Origin: Sandaracinobacter neustonicus
Lineage (GTDB): Bacteria > Pseudomonadota > Alphaproteobacteria > Sphingomonadales > Sphingomonadaceae
NCBI RefSeq assembly: GCF_006385875.1
Contig: NZ_VFSU01000034.1
Location: 248,001-312,000, forward strand
DNA length: 64,000 nucleotides
Direction: 5' to 3'
Shown: positions 8,165 to 43,981 of the stretch, one piece after another
Numbering within the stretch: position 1 is the first letter of the stretch
Layout of the letters: each line of letters starts with the position of its first letter
Notes under the pieces: generated by a model
Told to the model about the DNA's origin: nothing
Seen by the model: only the letters and a program-made list of their open reading frames with translations
The model's database searches: none
Program-made: the position numbers and the translations under genes

Positions 8165-9006
8165 TGCAGATCCTTGTCGATCATATCACGCGCTATAGCT
8201 ACTCCGAACCGGCGGTGGGGGTGGTGCAGCTGTTGAAGCTGACGCCGCGCAACAGCGAGTGCCAGCAGGTGGTGAGCTGGCGGATCGATGTGGACGCCGA
8301 CGGCAGCCTTGTTCCCGGCACCGATGCCTATGGGAATTTCGTGCACACTTTCTATGCAGACCGGCCGGTGGAGAGCCTGACGCTGCATGTGACGGGGCAT
8401 GTGATCACCACGGATCAATCCGGCGTGCTGCTGGGGCTGGACGAGCCGCTGCCGCCGCTGCTGTATCGTCGGCCCACGCCGCTGACGGCGATCACCGCGC
8501 CGATTGCGCATTTCGCGGAAGGCTTCCGCCGCGACGAGCCGCTGGCGACGCTGCACGCGCTGATGCTGGGCGTGCATGAGCGGATCGAGTTCGCCACCGG
8601 CGTGACGGAGCCGCAGACCGACGCCGATGCCGTGCTGCAAATGGGGCGCGGCGTGTGCCAGGATCTGTCGCAGCTGTTCATCGCTTCTGCCCGGCATCTG
8701 GGGATTCCGGCACGTTATGTGTCTGGCCATTATGCCGCACCCGATCACCCGGAGCAGGAGGCCGCGCACGGCTGGGCGGAAGGCCATGTGGAGGGGCTGG
8801 GCTGGGTGAGCTTCGATCCCACCCATTGCGTATCCGGCACGCCGGGGCATGTGCGGGTGGCGGTGGGGCTGGATTCCTGCGAGGCCGCGCCCGTTCGCGG
8901 ATCGCGGCGCGGCGGCGGAATCGAATCGCTTGCGGTGGGCGTGCATGGGCGGCAAGCGGGAGCCGAGCGGAAGAAGCAGTCGGCCTTCGGCCAGACACAG
9001 GCCTGA
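8164..9006 (+). CDS. Transglutaminase-like cysteine protease family protein
   Basis: A 280-residue protein with the bacterial transglutaminase-like N-terminal domain (about 1-90, starting MQILVDHITRYSYSEPAVGV) and a papain-like transglutaminase core. The triad is visible: Cys165 in GVCQDLSQ, His202 in AAHGWAE and Asp218 in SFDPTH. No signal peptide, so it acts in the cytoplasm, probably cleaving or transferring an amide bond on a product of the ATP-grasp ligase. It overlaps the upstream gene by one base and is followed by Anbu after 32 nt. The basic, low-complexity tail after about residue 235 may not be structured. Confidence 0.92.
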   Translation: MQILVDHITRYSYSEPAVGVVQLLKLTPRNSECQQVVSWRIDVDADGSLVPGTDAYGNFVHTFYADRPVESLTLHVTGHVITTDQSGVLLGLDEPLPPLLYRRPTPLTAITAPIAHFAEGFRRDEPLATLHALMLGVHERIEFATGVTEPQTDADAVLQMGRGVCQDLSQLFIASARHLGIPARYVSGHYAAPDHPEQEAAHGWAEGHVEGLGWVSFDPTHCVSGTPGHVRVAVGLDSCEAAPVRGSRRGGGIESLAVGVHGRQAGAERKKQSAFGQTQA

Positions 9007-37338: not shown

Positions 37339-40300
37339 GTGACCCAAATTCTCTGGCACAAGCGCGCCGCCCTTAAGGGCTCGGTCGCTTCGGCTGCTGT
37401 CGGCATCGCGATGCTCGCTGGCCCGGCAGCTTTTGCACAGTCCACTGCGGCGGCCGAAACGGCCGACACCGAAACCATCGTGGTGACGGGTTCGCTCATC
37501 AAGAACCCGAACCTCGATCGCGCCACCCCGGTGACCGTGACGTCGGCTGACGAAATCAACCTGAAGCAGGTGACGAACGCCGAGCAGGTTCTGCGCGACA
37601 TCCCCGGCATCGTTCCGTCCATCGGTTCGGCCGTGAACAATGGCAACGGCGGTGCGTCGTTCGTCAACCTGCGCGGCCTGGGTTCCAACCGGAACATCGT
37701 TCTGCTCGACGGTCAGCGCCTGGTGCCGGCCGAACTGAATGGCCGTTTCGACCTTAACAACATCCCGCTGGCTCTCATCGAGCGCGTGGACGTGCTGACG
37801 GGTGGCGCTTCGACCACCTACGGTGCCGACGCCGTTTCGGGCGTGGTGAACTTCATCACCCGCCGCGACTTCACCGGCGTGGAGCTGAATGCCAACTACG
37901 GCCTGACGCAAAAGGGCGACGGCCAGACGCTGAACCTCGACCTCACCACGGGCGCCAGCTTCGACGATGGCCGCGGCAACGTGACCCTGAGCGTCGGCTA
38001 TCAGGAATCCGATCAGGTTCTGCAGGCCGACCGCGACTTCTCGCGTTATTCCTATGACAGCTTCTTCGGGTCTGCCGGTGGTTCGGGCACGTCCAACCCG
38101 TCGCGTTGGTCCAACATCAACCCGACCGCCGGGAACCTGATCCAGAACCCGCTTGAAGGCGCTCAGATCTGCAACGTTCCGAGCGACCCGAACCTTCCGG
38201 TGATCCCGGGCGCGCCGAACTGCGTCAACCCGCAGGGTGGTCAGCGTCAAATCACTGCCGACGGCACGGCGTTCCGCCCGGGCACGGCCTATGATGCGTT
38301 CAACTTCAACCCGTACAACGTGTTCCAGACGCCGTTCAAGCGCTTCAACATCTATGCGGCCGGCCGCTATGAAGTGAACGAGAATCTGGAATTCTACACC
38401 CGTGCGATCTTCTCGAAGAACAAGGTGCAGACAATCATCGCCCCGTCGGGTGCGTTCGGTTTGTCCGTCGTCGTCCCGCTGAATAACCCGTTCCTGACGA
38501 CCGCTCAGCGCAACGCTTTCTGTAACGTCGATATCAATTCTGGTGTTGGTTACACCCCGCGCTTTACGGCCGCCGAGTGTGCAGCGGCTGCCAATCCGAA
38601 CCTGAAGCCGGGCGATGCAGACTATCGCAGCGTGAGTGCGGTGGTTTCGCGTCGGAACGTTGAAGGTGGTCCGCGGATTTCCACCTATGACACGACCTTC
38701 TTCGACTATCAGGCGGGTCTGCGTGGTGCGATCACCAGCACGATCGATTATGATGTGTCGGGCAGCTACGGCGAATCCGACAACGTTTCCACGGCCGATG
38801 GCTACTGGCTGAACTCGCGCGTTCGCCAGTCGATGCTTGCGAACGCCGCGGGCTGCTTCGACACGTCGAACGGCTGCGTTCCGCTGAACCTGTTCGGCGC
38901 GACCGGTTCCATCACCCCGGCGATGAATGACTTCCTGAACGAAGCGTCCACCACCAGCAACCGCTTCACCCTGGCGCAAGCCAAGGGTAGCATCTCGGGT
39001 GACTTCGGCGTCGGCAGCCCGCTCGCGTCCGACGCGCTCGCCTTTGCGGTCGGCGCTGAATGGCGCAGCTACTCGGCCACCCAAAAGTCCGACCTGCTGT
39101 CGCAATCGGGCGATCTGGGTGGTGCCGGTGGTGCGGCTCCGAACATTTCGGGCGGCTTCAACGTCTATGAACTGTTCGGTGAAGTCATTGCGCCGCTGGT
39201 GCAGGACAAGCCGTTCATGGAAGACCTCACCTTCGAAGGTGGTGTGCGCTATTCCAGCTACACGGTGGATGCGCCGACGAACCCGACGTTCGACACCTGG
39301 ACCTGGAAGGTGGGCGGCAGCTGGTCTCCGGGCTTCGGCCTGAAGGTCCGCGGTAACTACGCCAAGGCCATGCGTGCCCCGAACATCGCCGAGCTGTTCT
39401 CGCCGGTGAACACGGGCCTGACGAACCTGTCCGACGATCCGTGCGCCAGCCTGAAGGACAATGGCGACTCGCTGGGCCGTCCGACCCCGACGGGTGAATT
39501 GCTGGCGATCTGCCTTGCGCAAGGTGCTCCCACCACTTCGATCGGTGCCATCTCGGTTCCGACTGCTGGTCAGGCCAACGCGACCTTTGCCGGCAACGCA
39601 GCTCTGAAGCCGGAAAAGTCGACCTCCTGGACGCTGGGCGCAGTGTTCGTGCCGCAGTTCGCGCCGGGCCTCAGCCTGACCGTGGATTACTATAATATCG
39701 TAGTGACCGACGCGATCACCTTCCCGACGCCGAACGACGCGATCGAAGCCTGCTTCGGCACGGGTTCGACCCCGGCAGCTGGTGCTCACCTCACCGAGGC
39801 CTGCACCAGCATCCGCCGTTCGGACGCCACCGGTTCGCTCTCGGGTGACTCGGCTGAGGTTGGGGGCCTGTTCCTGCCCTATTCGAACCTCGGCCGTCTT
39901 GAGACGGACGGTGTCGACTTCACGCTGAACTATGGCACCGATTTCGGTGCCGTGGGCTGGAAGATCGCGCTGACCGGCAACTGGACGGGCAAGTCCGTCT
40001 TCCAGGCAACGCCGACATCGTCGTCTATCGATTGCGTGGGCAAGTTCGGCACGAGCTGCGGTTCGATCCAGCCGGATTGGTCCTGGTCGGTGCGGAACAC
40101 CTTCACGATCAGCGACTTCGACATCTCGTTCCTGTGGCGTCACCTGTCGAGCGTGACCTACGAAGGTGCAGGCGACGTGAACACGGAAGCCTATTCTGGC
40201 ACGCTGACCGGCGGCAACCTTGCTGGGCAGGAAGTGGACTTCAACCACATCCCGGCCTACAACATCTTCGACCTGTCGGCGCGGTTCCAGGCGAGCGAGA

Positions 40301-40461
40301 CCTTCACGTTCACCTTCGCGATCTCCAACCTCTTCGACAAGCAGCCGAAGGTGGTCGGGAACTCGATCGGTTCCACCTCGTTCAACAGCGGCAACGTCTA
40401 TCCGTCGACCTACGACGCTCTGGGCCGTCGCTTCAACGTGGGCGCCCGCATCCGCTTCTAA
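37339..40461 (+). CDS. TonB-dependent receptor, probably highly expressed
   Basis: A 1040-residue outer-membrane importer: signal peptide (VTQILWHKRAALKGSVASAA... PAAFAQ), plug motif ETIVVTGSLIKNPN, plug core VDVLTGGASTTYGADAVSGVVNF and a C-terminal VGARIRF. The start is GTG 37339 with AAGGAAGGA upstream. Codon use differs from the first receptor: many GGT, GTT, CGT and TCG codons, the pattern of highly expressed genes. It has its own terminator. The neighbours, a sulfotransferase-like protein and a TPR/hydroxylase protein, commonly sit near such receptors in sphingomonads, but the ligand is unknown. Confidence 0.95.
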   Translation: MTQILWHKRAALKGSVASAAVGIAMLAGPAAFAQSTAAAETADTETIVVTGSLIKNPNLDRATPVTVTSADEINLKQVTNAEQVLRDIPGIVPSIGSAVNNGNGGASFVNLRGLGSNRNIVLLDGQRLVPAELNGRFDLNNIPLALIERVDVLTGGASTTYGADAVSGVVNFITRRDFTGVELNANYGLTQKGDGQTLNLDLTTGASFDDGRGNVTLSVGYQESDQVLQADRDFSRYSYDSFFGSAGGSGTSNPSRWSNINPTAGNLIQNPLEGAQICNVPSDPNLPVIPGAPNCVNPQGGQRQITADGTAFRPGTAYDAFNFNPYNVFQTPFKRFNIYAAGRYEVNENLEFYTRAIFSKNKVQTIIAPSGAFGLSVVVPLNNPFLTTAQRNAFCNVDINSGVGYTPRFTAAECAAAANPNLKPGDADYRSVSAVVSRRNVEGGPRISTYDTTFFDYQAGLRGAITSTIDYDVSGSYGESDNVSTADGYWLNSRVRQSMLANAAGCFDTSNGCVPLNLFGATGSITPAMNDFLNEASTTSNRFTLAQAKGSISGDFGVGSPLASDALAFAVGAEWRSYSATQKSDLLSQSGDLGGAGGAAPNISGGFNVYELFGEVIAPLVQDKPFMEDLTFEGGVRYSSYTVDAPTNPTFDTWTWKVGGSWSPGFGLKVRGNYAKAMRAPNIAELFSPVNTGLTNLSDDPCASLKDNGDSLGRPTPTGELLAICLAQGAPTTSIGAISVPTAGQANATFAGNAALKPEKSTSWTLGAVFVPQFAPGLSLTVDYYNIVVTDAITFPTPNDAIEACFGTGSTPAAGAHLTEACTSIRRSDATGSLSGDSAEVGGLFLPYSNLGRLETDGVDFTLNYGTDFGAVGWKIALTGNWTGKSVFQATPTSSSIDCVGKFGTSCGSIQPDWSWSVRNTFTISDFDISFLWRHLSSVTYEGAGDVNTEAYSGTLTGGNLAGQEVDFNHIPAYNIFDLSARFQASETFTFTFAISNLFDKQPKVVGNSIGSTSFNSGNVYPSTYDALGRRFNVGARIRF

Positions 40462-40776
40462 GCGGCTCGGACACCGAAGACACAGCGAGGGGCGGTCCGA
40501 AAGGACCGCCCCTTTCTGCATTCGGAGCTTTACGCGGCTGCGTAAGGTAACCGCTGTGGCCGGGGTAATGTGGAACCCACCGGGCGAAATGATCTTCGAT
40601 CAATAGGATCCAACCGGATTCTGCAGCAGTTCAGGCGGGATTTCGATCAGGGATCGGCGGAGCGGCTTTTTTAACCAGCCGGACCTGCCGGGATCGCTGT
40701 GTCAGGGGCTTCTCCGGACGGAGCAAGCGTGACCGGTGGGCGCGGCAGGGCCTTCCGACGCCGACCTCTTGAGCGT
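40462..40776. other. Spacer after the second TonB receptor
   Basis: Contains the receptor terminator (40488-40513). The remaining 260 bp, up to the convergent sulfotransferase-like gene, holds no gene, no repeat family seen elsewhere in the window, and no hairpin that I can support for the minus-strand gene. Confidence 0.6.
40488..40513 (+). terminator. Intrinsic terminator of the second TonB receptor
   Basis: AGGGGCGGTCC (40488-40498), loop GAAA, GGACCGCCCCT (40503-40513), followed by TTCTGC; 27 nt after the stop. A tetraloop with an 11-bp perfect stem fits the high expression of the gene. Confidence 0.85.
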
Positions 40777-41799
40777 TCAGCCGAGCAGGGGGGCGGGGAG
40801 TTCCAGCGCGATTGCATGTGTGCGGGCGAGTTCAGCGGCCCAGATGCCAACCTTTTGCACTTCGTCGGCATGGGTTTTCAGGCCGAGTTCGCGGTCTGCG
40901 CGGCGATCGTCTGCGGTGAAGCTGCCGCCCGTCTTGCTGTTGCGGGTAAAGGCGGGGCCGCCGACGATCTCGTCGATCTGCGCGGCAGACAGCGCCAGTG
41001 TGAAATGGGCGGCCAACGCGGCCAGCGCATCGGCCGGGCGGGCCATCAACTGTTCGCTGTCGAGCGTGCGGATGCGATCACCGAACTGGCCGGCCAGTGC
41101 GGCGAACTGGCGTTGTTGCCCCAGCCAGCAGAGCGCGGCGATCTGGATATCGGTGAGCTTCAGCAGCTCGTCGCCCTGCAAGCCGAACTCCAGCAGCCCT
41201 TCGCGCCGCAGTTTCACGAACAGGTCGCGCACCCACAGACGCCCCCACAATCCTTTGCGAGCTATGGAGCCAAGGAAATCCTCCAGCGGCGCGTGCAGCA
41301 GCAGCGCCCGCGTCTCCGGACGCATACCCAGCATTGCCGGCGCGAGCGGATTGACGAGGTTGGACGGCTTGATCACAACGGCTTCGCCCGGTTGCCACGG
41401 CCGCGCCAGCAGGTTCAGCCCCTGATCCAGCACCATGGCGACCCGCGCACCCTCGACAGGGCCGCGATGTCGCCAGCCGACGATGTCATTTAGCAGCACA
41501 GGTTCGCTGAGCCCCATGGCAACACCCTCGCGATCCAGCGCGCGCACCAGCAAGGTGGAGCAGCAGAAGGCGGAATGGAAGATATAGCGCAGCGGGGCGG
41601 GTGGTATGGCGGCAGCAAGTGCAGCGGCTCGGCCCAGTACGAACGGCGATTTCGCGGCGGGCAGATTTTCGTCTGTCAGGAAGGGGATGGCGCGATGTTG
41701 TTCGCGGGGAACGCGCACGAACTGGAAGCGATCGCCGACAGCATCATAGCGGTGGGCGAGCCATTCGGGATTTCGCGACGGATTGTCTGCTTCGGCCAT
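40777..41799 (-). CDS. Sulfotransferase-like protein of unknown function
   Basis: A 340-residue cytoplasmic protein. The segment LRYIFHSAFCCSTLLVRALD resembles the PAPS-binding loop of sulfotransferases (strand, then SxxxxSTLL before a helix), and LNLLARPWQPGEAVVIKPSN plus FGDRIRTLDSEQLMARP fit later parts of that fold. The usual arginine/glycine of the loop is replaced by FCC, so activity may differ. ATG 41799 is the likely start. It diverges from the TPR/hydroxylase gene across 106 bp and converges on the TonB receptor. Could be a nucleotide-binding protein other than a sulfotransferase. Confidence 0.65.
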   Translation of the reverse strand: MAEADNPSRNPEWLAHRYDAVGDRFQFVRVPREQHRAIPFLTDENLPAAKSPFVLGRAAALAAAIPPAPLRYIFHSAFCCSTLLVRALDREGVAMGLSEPVLLNDIVGWRHRGPVEGARVAMVLDQGLNLLARPWQPGEAVVIKPSNLVNPLAPAMLGMRPETRALLLHAPLEDFLGSIARKGLWGRLWVRDLFVKLRREGLLEFGLQGDELLKLTDIQIAALCWLGQQRQFAALAGQFGDRIRTLDSEQLMARPADALAALAAHFTLALSAAQIDEIVGGPAFTRNSKTGGSFTADDRRADRELGLKTHADEVQKVGIWAAELARTHAIALELPAPLLG

Positions 41800-41905
41800 A
41801 CCGGGCTGATGGCATGGTGCGACGGATGAGCGCAATCGCCCTTCTTGTGCCGCCCATGGGCGGGGCCTAGGACAATCGTTCAATCTGGCCGCAGGATGAT
41901 GTGGG

Positions 41906-43201
41906 ATGGCGTCGAACGCGAGAAACCTGGACCAGCTGTTGCGCGGCGCGATGGCGGCGCGACAGGCGGGGGATCGAGCGCAGGAACTGGCGTTGCTGAC
42001 GGAGGCCATGCGGTTGGACGGGGCGCATCCGGTGGTGTGCAACGCGCGCGGGCTGCGGGCGTTGGCCGACGGCGAGTTCGATCTGGCCGCGCAATTGTTC
42101 GAACATGCGCTCACGGCGGACCCGGGGCAGCAGCCGTTGCTGATGAATCTGGCCGCCGCCCGGCATGGGCAAGGCGATAAGACGGGCGAACTGGAGGCCC
42201 TGAAGGCAGCGATCGCGGTGGATCAGCGGCACCTGATGGCGCAAATCCGGCTGGCCGACTGGTATGAGAATGATGGCAATCTGCCCGCCGCTGCCGAGCA
42301 TTGGCACAATGTGCTGGCGATGGCGCCCATGGCAGACGATCTGCCCGAACCGCTGATCGCGCGGATCGAGGCCGGGCGGCGCTTTGTTCAGGCGCAGAAT
42401 GCCGATTTCGCGGAGAAGCTGGAGGCGGGGCTGGCGCAGGCGCGGGCCGGGGTGGATAAGACCAGCAGCAGGCGGTTCGGGGCCTGTGTGGATGCGATGC
42501 TGGGGCGGCGGCGCATCTTTGCGAACGAATGTTCAGGGCTGCACTATCCCTTTCTGCCTGCAGATGAATTTTTCGAGCGACGGCTGTTTCCATGGATGGC
42601 CGAACTGGAATCCCGCACCGATGTGATCCGCGCGGAGTTCCGCGCGCTGGCGGCCGGAATGTCCGACGCGATCCGGCCTTATGTGCGGCAGGAGGCGGGA
42701 ACGCCTGCGAACAAGTGGAGCCCGCTGGACAATCGGCTGGACTGGGGGGCGTGTTTCCTGTGGGAGTATGGCGCGCCCAATCAGCCGGTTCTGGATGCCT
42801 GCCCGGAAACGGCGCGGGCGTTGGCGGCGTTGCCGCGCAATCATATTCCGGGCCGGGCACCAAGCGCCTTCTTCTCTCTGCTGAAGCCGCGAACGCGAAT
42901 TCCGCCGCACACCGGAGTGACAAACACGCGCGCCATCATTCACCTGCCGCTGATCGTGCCGGGTGATTGCGGTTTCCGGGTGGGCGGCGAAACACGGCAG
43001 TGGCGCGAAGGAGAGGCCTTCGCGTTCGACGACACCATCGAACACGAAGCGTGGAACGACGGCGATGAGTTGCGCGTGGTGCTGATCTTCGACGTGTGGA
43101 ACCCGCATCTGAGCGAGGAGGAGCAAAAGCTGCTGGTGCAGTTCTTCGCGGCTGCGGATGCGGGCGGGCACAATCCGGCTGGCATGTCGCGCGGAGGCTG
43201 A
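41906..43201 (+). CDS. TPR protein with aspartyl/asparaginyl beta-hydroxylase domain
   Basis: A 431-residue protein. Residues 1-150 form TPR-like helical repeats (ALLTEAMRLDGAHPVVCNAR, AAQLFEHALTADPGQQPLLM, ALKAAIAVDQRHLMAQIRLA); residues about 215-415 are an Asp/Asn beta-hydroxylase, an Fe(II)/2-oxoglutarate dioxygenase. Metal histidines are in IPPHTGVTNTRAIIHLPL and FDDTIEHEAWNDGDELRVVL, the latter with the 2-oxoglutarate arginine (ELR). It would hydroxylate Asp or Asn in a peptide or protein bound by the TPRs. Divergent from the sulfotransferase-like gene and followed by two small secreted proteins. Confidence 0.9.
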   Translation: MASNARNLDQLLRGAMAARQAGDRAQELALLTEAMRLDGAHPVVCNARGLRALADGEFDLAAQLFEHALTADPGQQPLLMNLAAARHGQGDKTGELEALKAAIAVDQRHLMAQIRLADWYENDGNLPAAAEHWHNVLAMAPMADDLPEPLIARIEAGRRFVQAQNADFAEKLEAGLAQARAGVDKTSSRRFGACVDAMLGRRRIFANECSGLHYPFLPADEFFERRLFPWMAELESRTDVIRAEFRALAAGMSDAIRPYVRQEAGTPANKWSPLDNRLDWGACFLWEYGAPNQPVLDACPETARALAALPRNHIPGRAPSAFFSLLKPRTRIPPHTGVTNTRAIIHLPLIVPGDCGFRVGGETRQWREGEAFAFDDTIEHEAWNDGDELRVVLIFDVWNPHLSEEEQKLLVQFFAAADAGGHNPAGMSRGG

Positions 43202-43249
43202 TAGACACGGAGGCCCCCTTTTGGCGGGGCTTGTTGTGTGGAGATGTTG

Positions 43250-43546
43250 ATGCGTGCGCTGATTATCCTGTCTCTGTTGCCCCTGCTGGCGTTGCCTGCG
43301 CTTCCGGCCGCCGCCCAGAAGGCGGATCAGGCTGTGGACAATGGCGATCTGGATCCACGGCATCCCGATTTCGTGCGCTGCCGGAAAATGCCGGTGCCCG
43401 GCTCAACATTCCAGAAGAAGCGCATCTGCAAATCCAACCGGGACTGGCAGCGGGACCTTGAAGAGGCGCGCGGCCAGACCGACGACATGGCGACACAGGC
43501 GCGCAACAGCCGCAAGGATTGTTATGGCAGCGGCATTTATTGTTGA
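43250..43546 (+). CDS. Small secreted Cys-containing protein, paralogue 1
   Basis: A 98-residue protein: signal peptide (MRALIILSLLPLLALPALPAAAQ) and a mature part with LDPRHPDFVRCRKMPVPGSTFQKKRICKSNRDW, a helical Asp/Glu-Arg stretch and a C-terminal CYGSGIYC. Four cysteines could give two disulfides. It shares the pattern LDPxxPxxVRCRKxxVxGS and RICxxNxxW with the next gene. ATG 43250 follows GGAG; an upstream in-frame GTG and ATG are less likely. Function unknown; not seen by me in a named family. Confidence 0.75.
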   Translation: MRALIILSLLPLLALPALPAAAQKADQAVDNGDLDPRHPDFVRCRKMPVPGSTFQKKRICKSNRDWQRDLEEARGQTDDMATQARNSRKDCYGSGIYC

Positions 43547-43699
43547 TCGCGCCGACGGGCTTTGGCTGCGGCTGAACGCAAATGGCATTGCGGCGAGTCG
43601 CTAAATCGGCGAGACTCTGTTAGCATGTGCAACATGTGGCCATGGACTCGGTGTGTTCGGCGCACCGTCCGTGTTGCCGATCCTGTTCTGGAGGTTTGA

Positions 43700-43981
43700 A
43701 TGCGGACTGTTCTGACTGCCGCCGTGCTGTTGGCCGCCGGCGTTGCCTTTGCCCCCGTCGCGCCGCTGCACGCGGCGCCCTCGACGGAAACCGGCGCGGA
43801 AAAGCTGGATCCGAAGGATCCCAACTATGTTCGTTGCCGCAAGATTCAGGTGACGGGTTCGCTGGTGAAGAAAGAGCGTATTTGCCGGACCAACGCCGAA
43901 TGGGCGCGCGCCAGCGAAGATGCGCAGAAGAACGCCGGTGATCTGATCGGGCGGAATCGCACCGGGACCAACGGGCAGTAA
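43700..43981 (+). CDS. Small secreted Cys-containing protein, paralogue 2
   Basis: A 93-residue protein: signal peptide (MRTVLTAAVLLAAGVAFAP... LHA) and a mature core LDPKDPNYVRCRKIQVTGS and KKERICRTNAEWARASEDAQ. It has the first two cysteines of paralogue 1 but not the C-terminal CYGSGIYC pair. GGAGG sits before ATG 43700. The two genes are 153 bp apart in the same direction, an old tandem duplication with divergence. Periplasmic by signal peptide; function unknown. Confidence 0.75.
   Translation: MRTVLTAAVLLAAGVAFAPVAPLHAAPSTETGAEKLDPKDPNYVRCRKIQVTGSLVKKERICRTNAEWARASEDAQKNAGDLIGRNRTGTNGQ

Follow-up and report, generated by a model that had tools for sequence, protein, structure and literature searches.

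A conserved gene group of a TonB-dependent receptor, a sulfotransferase-fold protein, a TPR-AspH hydroxylase and small exported proteins with a TonB-segment-like loop

The window analysed here is a stretch of 64,000 nucleotides from the 3.65-Mb genome of Sandaracinobacter neustonicus (contig C34:248001-312000). Within it lie genes for a TonB-dependent receptor (TBDR), a protein of sulfotransferase (ST) fold, a protein combining tetratricopeptide repeats (TPR) with an aspartyl/asparaginyl beta-hydroxylase domain (AspH), and two small exported hairpin proteins, S1 and S2. Receptor, ST-fold protein, TPR-AspH and small exported proteins form a conserved group, beyond what chance would produce. The small proteins belong to a widespread family that has no Pfam or NCBIfam model and is newly recognised here, and their hairpin loop, VTGS[L/R]xK, resembles the TonB-box segment of the receptor, IVVTGS[L/R]IK. 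We tentatively favor a reading, to which we give somewhat less than an even chance, in which the genes of the locus together serve a single TonB-dependent uptake system that has tailoring enzymes of its own and accessory proteins in the periplasm.

The initial annotation had described five open reading frames (ORFs), including the TonB receptor and a convergent ST-like gene, and a divergent gap of 106 bp between the ST-like and AspH genes. All of the reading frames are present and the gap is exact. The features are as follows.

37339-40461, plus strand: TBDR of 1040 amino acids, read from GTG 37339, with Plug and barrel domains (Pfam).
37477-37503, plus strand: TonB-box-proximal segment of the receptor, IVVTGSLIK, which the S2 loop resembles (sequence, loop-profile scan).
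38803-38805, plus strand: receptor Tyr489 (in GYWLNSR), found at loci that have ST and AspH, a pattern that lineage explains so far (column counts, tree test).
40489-40515, plus strand: likely terminator after the receptor gene, with a perfect 10-bp stem, a GAAA loop and a short T run (direct reading).
40777-41799, minus strand: ST-like protein of 340 amino acids, ATG at 41799, convergent to the receptor (AlphaFold2 model, alignment).
41800-41905, no strand: divergent intergenic gap of exactly 106 bp, from the ST-like ATG to the AspH ATG at 41906 (ORF starts).
41906-43201, plus strand: TPR-AspH protein of 431 amino acids (PF05118; match to AspH in the PDB with HTG...EHE...R).
43250-43546, plus strand: S1, small exported hairpin protein with a diverged loop, VPGSTFQ, and an additional C-terminal Cys pair (sequence, alignment).
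43700-43981, plus strand: S2, small exported hairpin protein of 93 amino acids (AlphaFold2 model, alignment).
43850-43870, plus strand: loop VTGSLVK of S2, residues 51-57 (alignment, model, loop-profile scan).

Homologues were counted in 148 genomes, that of the window included, and at the thresholds used the ST-like protein was found in 38, S2 in 44, AspH in 63 and the receptor in 32. When the genome of the window was left out, 20 of the 147 relatives carried a close homologue of the ST-like protein, and these also carried the receptor in 17 cases (Fisher p 3e-11), AspH in 15 (p 6e-12) and the small protein in 15 (p 6e-6), all three p values being uncorrected for ancestry. The lists behind these tests required at least 44% identity for ST and at least 44% over about 380 residues or more for AspH; diverged or partial homologues were left out, for example the ST of genomes G010, G011, G042, G052 and G067 and the AspH of G012, G025 and G027. 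Receptor scoring considered at most five candidates per genome and missed receptors in at least two genomes (G026 and G027).

The grouping is also evident at the level of individual loci. Searching named genomes with the ST alignment yielded 378 confirmed matches, the best 80 of which were taken as loci; these span Sphingobium, Sphingomonas, Novosphingobium, Sandaracinobacteroides, Polymorphobacter, Sphingorhabdus, Kordiimonas, Pseudokordiimonas and others. Partners were counted within 6 kb at the 65 ST loci that had at least 6 kb on both flanks, and a receptor and a small protein were each present in 60, AspH was present in 58, and 50 loci had all three. Receptor and ST genes were convergent in 60/60 cases, and the nearest AspH gene was divergent from ST in 51/58. 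Gene order differs among the loci; membership of the group is maintained. In the window the group is placed between xseA-DUF2093 and clpB, the names xseA and clpB being those we assigned presumptively from the reading frames, and among the 65 ST loci 44 have clpB within 9 kb and 35 have xseA. The linkage is not tied to the clpB site: where clpB is not found within 9 kb, 15 of 21 loci keep all three partners, as do 13 of the 18 that also lack xseA. Mirror-tree partial correlations of distances after clpB ranged from r 0.66 to 0.89 (38-49 rows from clpB-bearing loci, no significance test), the highest, 0.89, being that of AspH with the small protein. The initial annotation had offered the five genes as one possible system and had named co-occurrence across genomes, beforehand, as the check that could refute it; the check was run and the grouping survived.

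S1 and S2 both have a signal-peptide-like start, judged by eye, and the pattern RCRK...RIC is common to the two, which bears out their earlier description as exported paralogues with these motifs. Among 47 family rows from ST loci, two Cys, a Gly, a Ser and a Trp are invariant and the loop Leu is nearly so; among 39 rows of wider origin the Gly, both Cys and the Trp are invariant, the Ser is nearly so and the Leu position is unconserved. The AlphaFold2 model of S2 has a mean predicted local distance difference test (pLDDT) score of 79, with 81-97 per block over residues 31-90, and consists of a strand (44-50), the loop VTGSLVK (51-57), a second strand (58-64) and a helix (65-88), Cys46 and Cys62 being opposite each other by strand register. 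No known fold matched this model at a Foldseek E below 0.001, and Pfam and NCBIfam scans of 39 family members returned only single-member matches with E above 0.03.

Members of the small-protein family occur in 183 of the 298 genomes that represent the window's taxonomic family. They were found in 11 of 289 genomes of the wider class, three of them (the window's own, G019 and G159) from that same family, and in 10 of 82 genomes of one other family, all of one genus. This distribution, far wider than that of the enzymes, speaks against the small proteins being the enzymes' target, which the initial annotation had offered as a guess. The small-protein genes often stand in tandem, and often no receptor is recognised in the fetched stretch (window positions 43250-43981; loci L131-L147 and L298-L377).

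The resemblance between hairpin loop and receptor was examined with profiles built from the loop only. Scanned against 2255 ORFs of at least 200 amino acids from the fetched loci, the loop profile placed receptor N-termini first, with 95 of the top 100 matches. Of 20 control profiles with permuted columns, 15 had no receptor N-terminus among their top 100 matches and the other five had 1, 3, 3, 29 and 75, matches that perhaps come from partly retained T-G-S order. A profile of 40 loops from loci without a recognised receptor (39 from the family and one, L371, from another) had its best site in the N-terminal segment in 109 of 126 TBDRs, with a median score of 19.0 that 0 of 2129 other ORFs reached; when the profile was built from 17 loops taken outside the family, the median was reached by 7 of the 2129 non-TBDR ORFs. 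Medians were taken over the receptors whose best site fell in the segment, 108, 109 and 106 of 126 for the three loop sets. Because receptors are over-represented in the fetched loci and are one homologous family, we count the resemblance as a single observation, and a well supported one. In receptors of this kind, TonB makes contact with the segment beside the TonB box. No description of a VTGSR motif in connection with TonB was found in open-licence PubMed Central (PMC) text.

The label "sulfotransferase-like" in the initial annotation is right at the fold level, as judged from a predicted model and structure searches. The window protein has no Pfam match, Sulfotransfer_3 was matched by only 1 of 51 homologues (E 0.0037), and an ST sequence profile found no sulfotransferase in the PDB. 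The AlphaFold2 model is confident (pLDDT 92.1; predicted template modelling score, pTM, 0.91). VIA-align gave human TPST2 and TPST1, the tyrosylprotein sulfotransferases, as best folds (Z 15.3, root-mean-square deviation 3.6-3.7, 228-230 aligned residues), with a sulfotransferase domain of the curacin pathway at Z 13.5. Foldseek ranked the curacin-pathway domain first (E 2.5e-5), with TPST rows from 8.7e-5. Among the 50 matches listed for each program, all were sulfotransferases with VIA-align, and all were sulfotransferases or retinol dehydratase, which binds 3'-phosphoadenosine 5'-phosphate and has the same fold, with Foldseek.

Passages of PMC6637879 name as essential to sulfotransferases a positively charged residue of the 5'-phosphosulfate-binding (5'-PSB) loop, a Ser of the 3'-phosphate-binding (3'-PB) motif and a base, Glu or His, between the motifs. 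Residues H75, S76, C79, S81, T82, E99, K144 and S178 are invariant in 51 ST-like rows, as is the pair K144-P145. E99 (51/51) is a candidate catalytic base, with the same spacing by eye as the Glu of PF13469 proteins, and S178 (51/51) is a candidate 3'-PB Ser, its motif also placed by eye. An hhalign comparison with six PF13469-type proteins aligned from about residue 119 onward at a low probability of 40% (E 0.0003); it takes in the K144 region, with K144-P145 on the K-x-P motif, and not the P-loop. The genome encodes an adenosine 5'-phosphosulfate kinase, by which a supply of 3'-phosphoadenosine 5'-phosphosulfate is possible, and only possible.

The AspH domain matches PF05118 at 146 bits (cut-off 22.6). 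TPR matches stay under the Pfam cut-offs (best TPR_2, 24.8 versus 27) but the PDB contains designed TPR proteins that match strongly; the earlier identification of an Asp/Asn beta-hydroxylase with TPRs holds. Solved AspH structures match at about 91-97 bits over 135-137 residues, with HTG, EHE and the following Arg kept. H335, H380 and R390 are invariant in 20/20 rows; we take the two His to bind Fe and the Arg to bind 2-oxoglutarate (2OG). Beyond AspH, the Pfam matches were TPR and a weak cupin, and NCBIfam returned only AspH-type and TPR models, the best of the former being OlsC (91 bits) and LpxO (52 bits), far under their cut-offs of 450 and 500. Since no signal peptide is evident by eye in AspH or in the ST-like protein, both should be cytoplasmic. 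A second, diverged TPR-AspH (38% identity) is encoded elsewhere in the same genome (L033 7629-8807, G000:C30); scans of seven ORFs beside it recognised a Zn peptidase, a glucose/sorbosone dehydrogenase and AAA proteins, and no receptor or ST. At ten other loci (L178, L185, L191, L195, L197, L202, L203, L213, L222 and L226) a second, more diverged AspH (about 200 bits) lies on the strand opposite to the first.

The receptor matches PF07715 (Plug, 85.7 bits) and PF00593 (barrel, 130 bits), both above cut-offs, and among 25 of 29 NCBIfam matches listed none reached its cut-off. Receptor columns were compared as raw counts between loci with both enzymes (73 rows) and with neither (13 rows). N361 stood at 96 versus 23%, D928 at 97 versus 31% and column 762 at 86 versus 23%; several columns of other residues likewise pass an 85%/40% threshold in this comparison. 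Tyr489 was present in 72/73 rows with both enzymes and in 0/13 with neither, and Thr/Ser at position 695 split ST-containing loci (100%) from those without ST (14%), again in raw counts. Since ST served as the search bait, it is over-represented in clade A of the receptor tree; the R-type receptor clade with ST has F or W at position 489. The enzyme-tracking segments GYWLNSR and SGDLGGAGG look like outer loops in our own reading of the receptor topology.

The receptor gene is probably its own transcription unit, because a stem-loop with a T run stands at its end; the T count of this terminator is under the threshold of the computed site list, from which it is absent. AspH, S1 and S2 could form a single operon, with ATG 43250 preferred over 43238 as the start of S1. 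A search for sigma-70-like promoters in the region, the 106-bp gap included, found none, against 1.1 expected by chance.

Other genes recur beside the group. A 172-amino-acid protein with a signal-peptide-like start and Cys (example L181 3671-4189) is found in 12 of the 21 ST loci without clpB (L181, L184, L191, L192, L195, L197, L198, L202, L203, L206, L222 and L226), and further neighbor clusters recur in 5-10 of them. This clustering is rough because ORFs overlap, and among the 21 loci it picked up a receptor in 7 and AspH in 12. Locus L148 (7399-9606), from another family (f2), has two tandem diverged ST-like genes and no recognised receptor in its stretch, and locus L305 has, besides the main receptor, a second receptor of different type (330 bits) near 8914, 348 bp from the small protein.

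Parts of this arrangement have counterparts in known systems. Human AspH has TPR-like repeats before its AspH domain and acts on a loop of its EGF-like substrate. The locus protein shares the repeats in the same place and the aligned HTG/EHE/R pattern; it differs in being bacterial, in having no evident signal or anchor, and in that no counterpart of the EGF-like substrate loop was found. According to PMC12004947, the Caulobacter receptor CciT functions only together with the cytoplasmic dioxygenase CciO, and mutated receptor homologues have been linked to resistance against cefiderocol. Our locus resembles CciT-CciO, and likewise PiuA-PiuC and Fiu-YbiX, in the co-conservation of a TonB receptor with a cytoplasmic protein of the Fe(II)/2OG dioxygenase families. 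It differs in that the oxygenase is a TPR-AspH (PF05118) and not a CciO/PiuC orthologue, and in the added ST-fold and small hairpin proteins.

RaxST, described in PMC6637879, is a tyrosylprotein sulfotransferase of bacterial origin whose gene adjoins that of a small secreted peptide, and it was modelled on TPST2. The RaxX-RaxST pair of Xanthomonas thus shares with the locus a sulfotransferase beside a small secreted peptide, and TPST2 is a nearest fold here too; in contrast, the ST-like protein of the locus is without the P-loop Arg, no Tyr is conserved among the small proteins (any Tyr in 30/85 from loci with AspH), and no type I exporter is among the seven proteins scanned at this locus. For genomes of Pontixanthobacter type, Table 2 of PMC10040529 includes lasso-peptide genes along with an aspartyl beta-hydroxylase and two clusters of sulfotransferases (clusters 1738-1748). 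The same two enzyme types occur there, their neighborhood being suggested only by near-consecutive cluster numbers, and by analogy that table may be a precedent for the enzyme pair acting on a ribosomal peptide. Unlike those clusters, this locus has no lasso gene that we saw, although the whole window was not scanned for lasso genes. No description of the gene set as such was found in open-licence PMC text.

That these genes travel together in many sphingomonads is why we regard them as probably one uptake system. In the reading we prefer, AspH and the ST-like protein would hydroxylate, and perhaps sulfate, a peptide substrate in the cytoplasm before its export, most simply the receptor itself; protein substrates are suggested because the ST-like protein is nearest by Z to protein-tyrosine sulfotransferases and AspH carries TPRs. 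The small proteins would act in the periplasm, where a disulfide-held VTGS[L/R]xK loop could bind TonB or the plug as the receptor N-terminus does, and their binding would tune the energy coupling of the receptor. More specifically, and as a proposal we consider rather unlikely in this full form, the small proteins would be TonB-box mimics whose loop competes with, primes or gates the coupling of TonB to the receptor, with ST and AspH as an accompanying module for protein modification that belongs to one receptor clade.

Several observations weigh against these proposals. The parts separate: 5 of the 65 ST loci have no receptor within 6 kb and 7 have no AspH (for example Kordiimonas marina, L156), receptor and small protein occur together without recognised enzymes (for example L131-L135, L309 and L316), many loci have a small protein without a recognised TBDR, ST or AspH, and in receptor clade B, among the tree rows listed, ST is found in 8/21 and AspH in 0/21. 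No acceptor residue is established in the receptor. None of its Asp or Asn columns passes the 85%/40% threshold between rows with AspH (74) and without it (31). Tyr489 was considered as the modification site and set aside, since among the rows listed it shows only two changes on the receptor tree and only one of six independent ST-differing pairs is informative; with so few changes its association reflects lineage and is no proof of a site. A match of L or R between loop and receptor, striking initially, was also dropped as evidence, as R-type receptors occur with L-type small proteins too and the residue changes only 3 and 2 times on the tree among rows listed, too few to test the match. In the ST-like protein the P-loop (5'-PSB) Arg is missing, PRSGTT of PF13469 being replaced by AFCCST or AYCCST, with invariant His75 near the altered loop; this correspondence is outside the hhalign alignment and was made visually, from an identical spacing of 17 residues between the last Thr and the Glu. 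The residue at the 3'-PB Arg position varies among ST-like rows. Because the 5'-PSB Arg is replaced, we use the label "sulfotransferase-fold" and not "sulfotransferase".

The main rival to tailoring of the receptor is that the enzymes process the imported ligand, a siderophore or peptide, as suggested for PiuC and YbiX beside PiuA and Fiu. We think this on balance unlikely, though a serious possibility. It would agree with the strict need of CciT for cytoplasmic CciO, for which substrate transformation is among the ideas offered in passages of PMC12004947, with the location of enzyme-tracking receptor features in segments resembling outer loops, and with the lack of an established acceptor residue. 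The TPSTs as nearest folds by Z and the TPRs on AspH point instead to protein substrates; a weak point of this objection is that the recurring neighbors (the exported 172-amino-acid protein in 12/21 loci, others in 5-10) leave room for a processing gene. A further reading, in which the receptor needs an outer-membrane lipid that the two enzymes modify, has a slim chance. LpxO and OlsC, which hydroxylate lipid A and ornithine lipid, are the best NCBIfam matches of AspH type, far under cut-offs as given above, but matches in the PDB favor protein AspH (about 91-97 bits), TPRs are present, and the ST fold is again nearest to TPSTs.

The small proteins themselves might be the substrates, hydroxylated at the Asp of LDPxxP and perhaps sulfated; they adjoin AspH and ST, look exported, and have distances that correlate best with those of AspH (partial r 0.89). 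The proposal of the initial annotation that AspH acts on this Asp nevertheless found no support: LDPxxP-like motifs occur in 23/85 small proteins at loci with AspH versus 27/121 without, any Asp or Asn lies in the hairpin, between the Cys pair, in only 17/85, any Tyr occurs in 30/85, and the family is present in many loci without the enzymes, which together make this explanation very improbable. Neighborhood by descent only, at a stable site between xseA-DUF2093 and clpB and with no shared function, would fit the frequency of clpB (44/65) and xseA (35/65) nearby and the several partial combinations of parts. We judge it improbable, given that all three partners are found in 15/21 loci without clpB and 13/18 without clpB and xseA, that order varies while membership stays, and that the co-variation exceeds clpB.

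Partnerships of a receptor with an oxygenase, such as CciT-CciO, are described in PMC12004947 as supporting the uptake of iron. To such partnerships this locus adds a second enzyme type, of protein-sulfotransferase-like fold, and a third component with a loop resembling the receptor's TonB segment. No description of TonB-dependent transport regulated by a TonB-box mimic was found in the papers searched; if the proposal is true, such a mimic would be a further way to regulate TonB-dependent transport.

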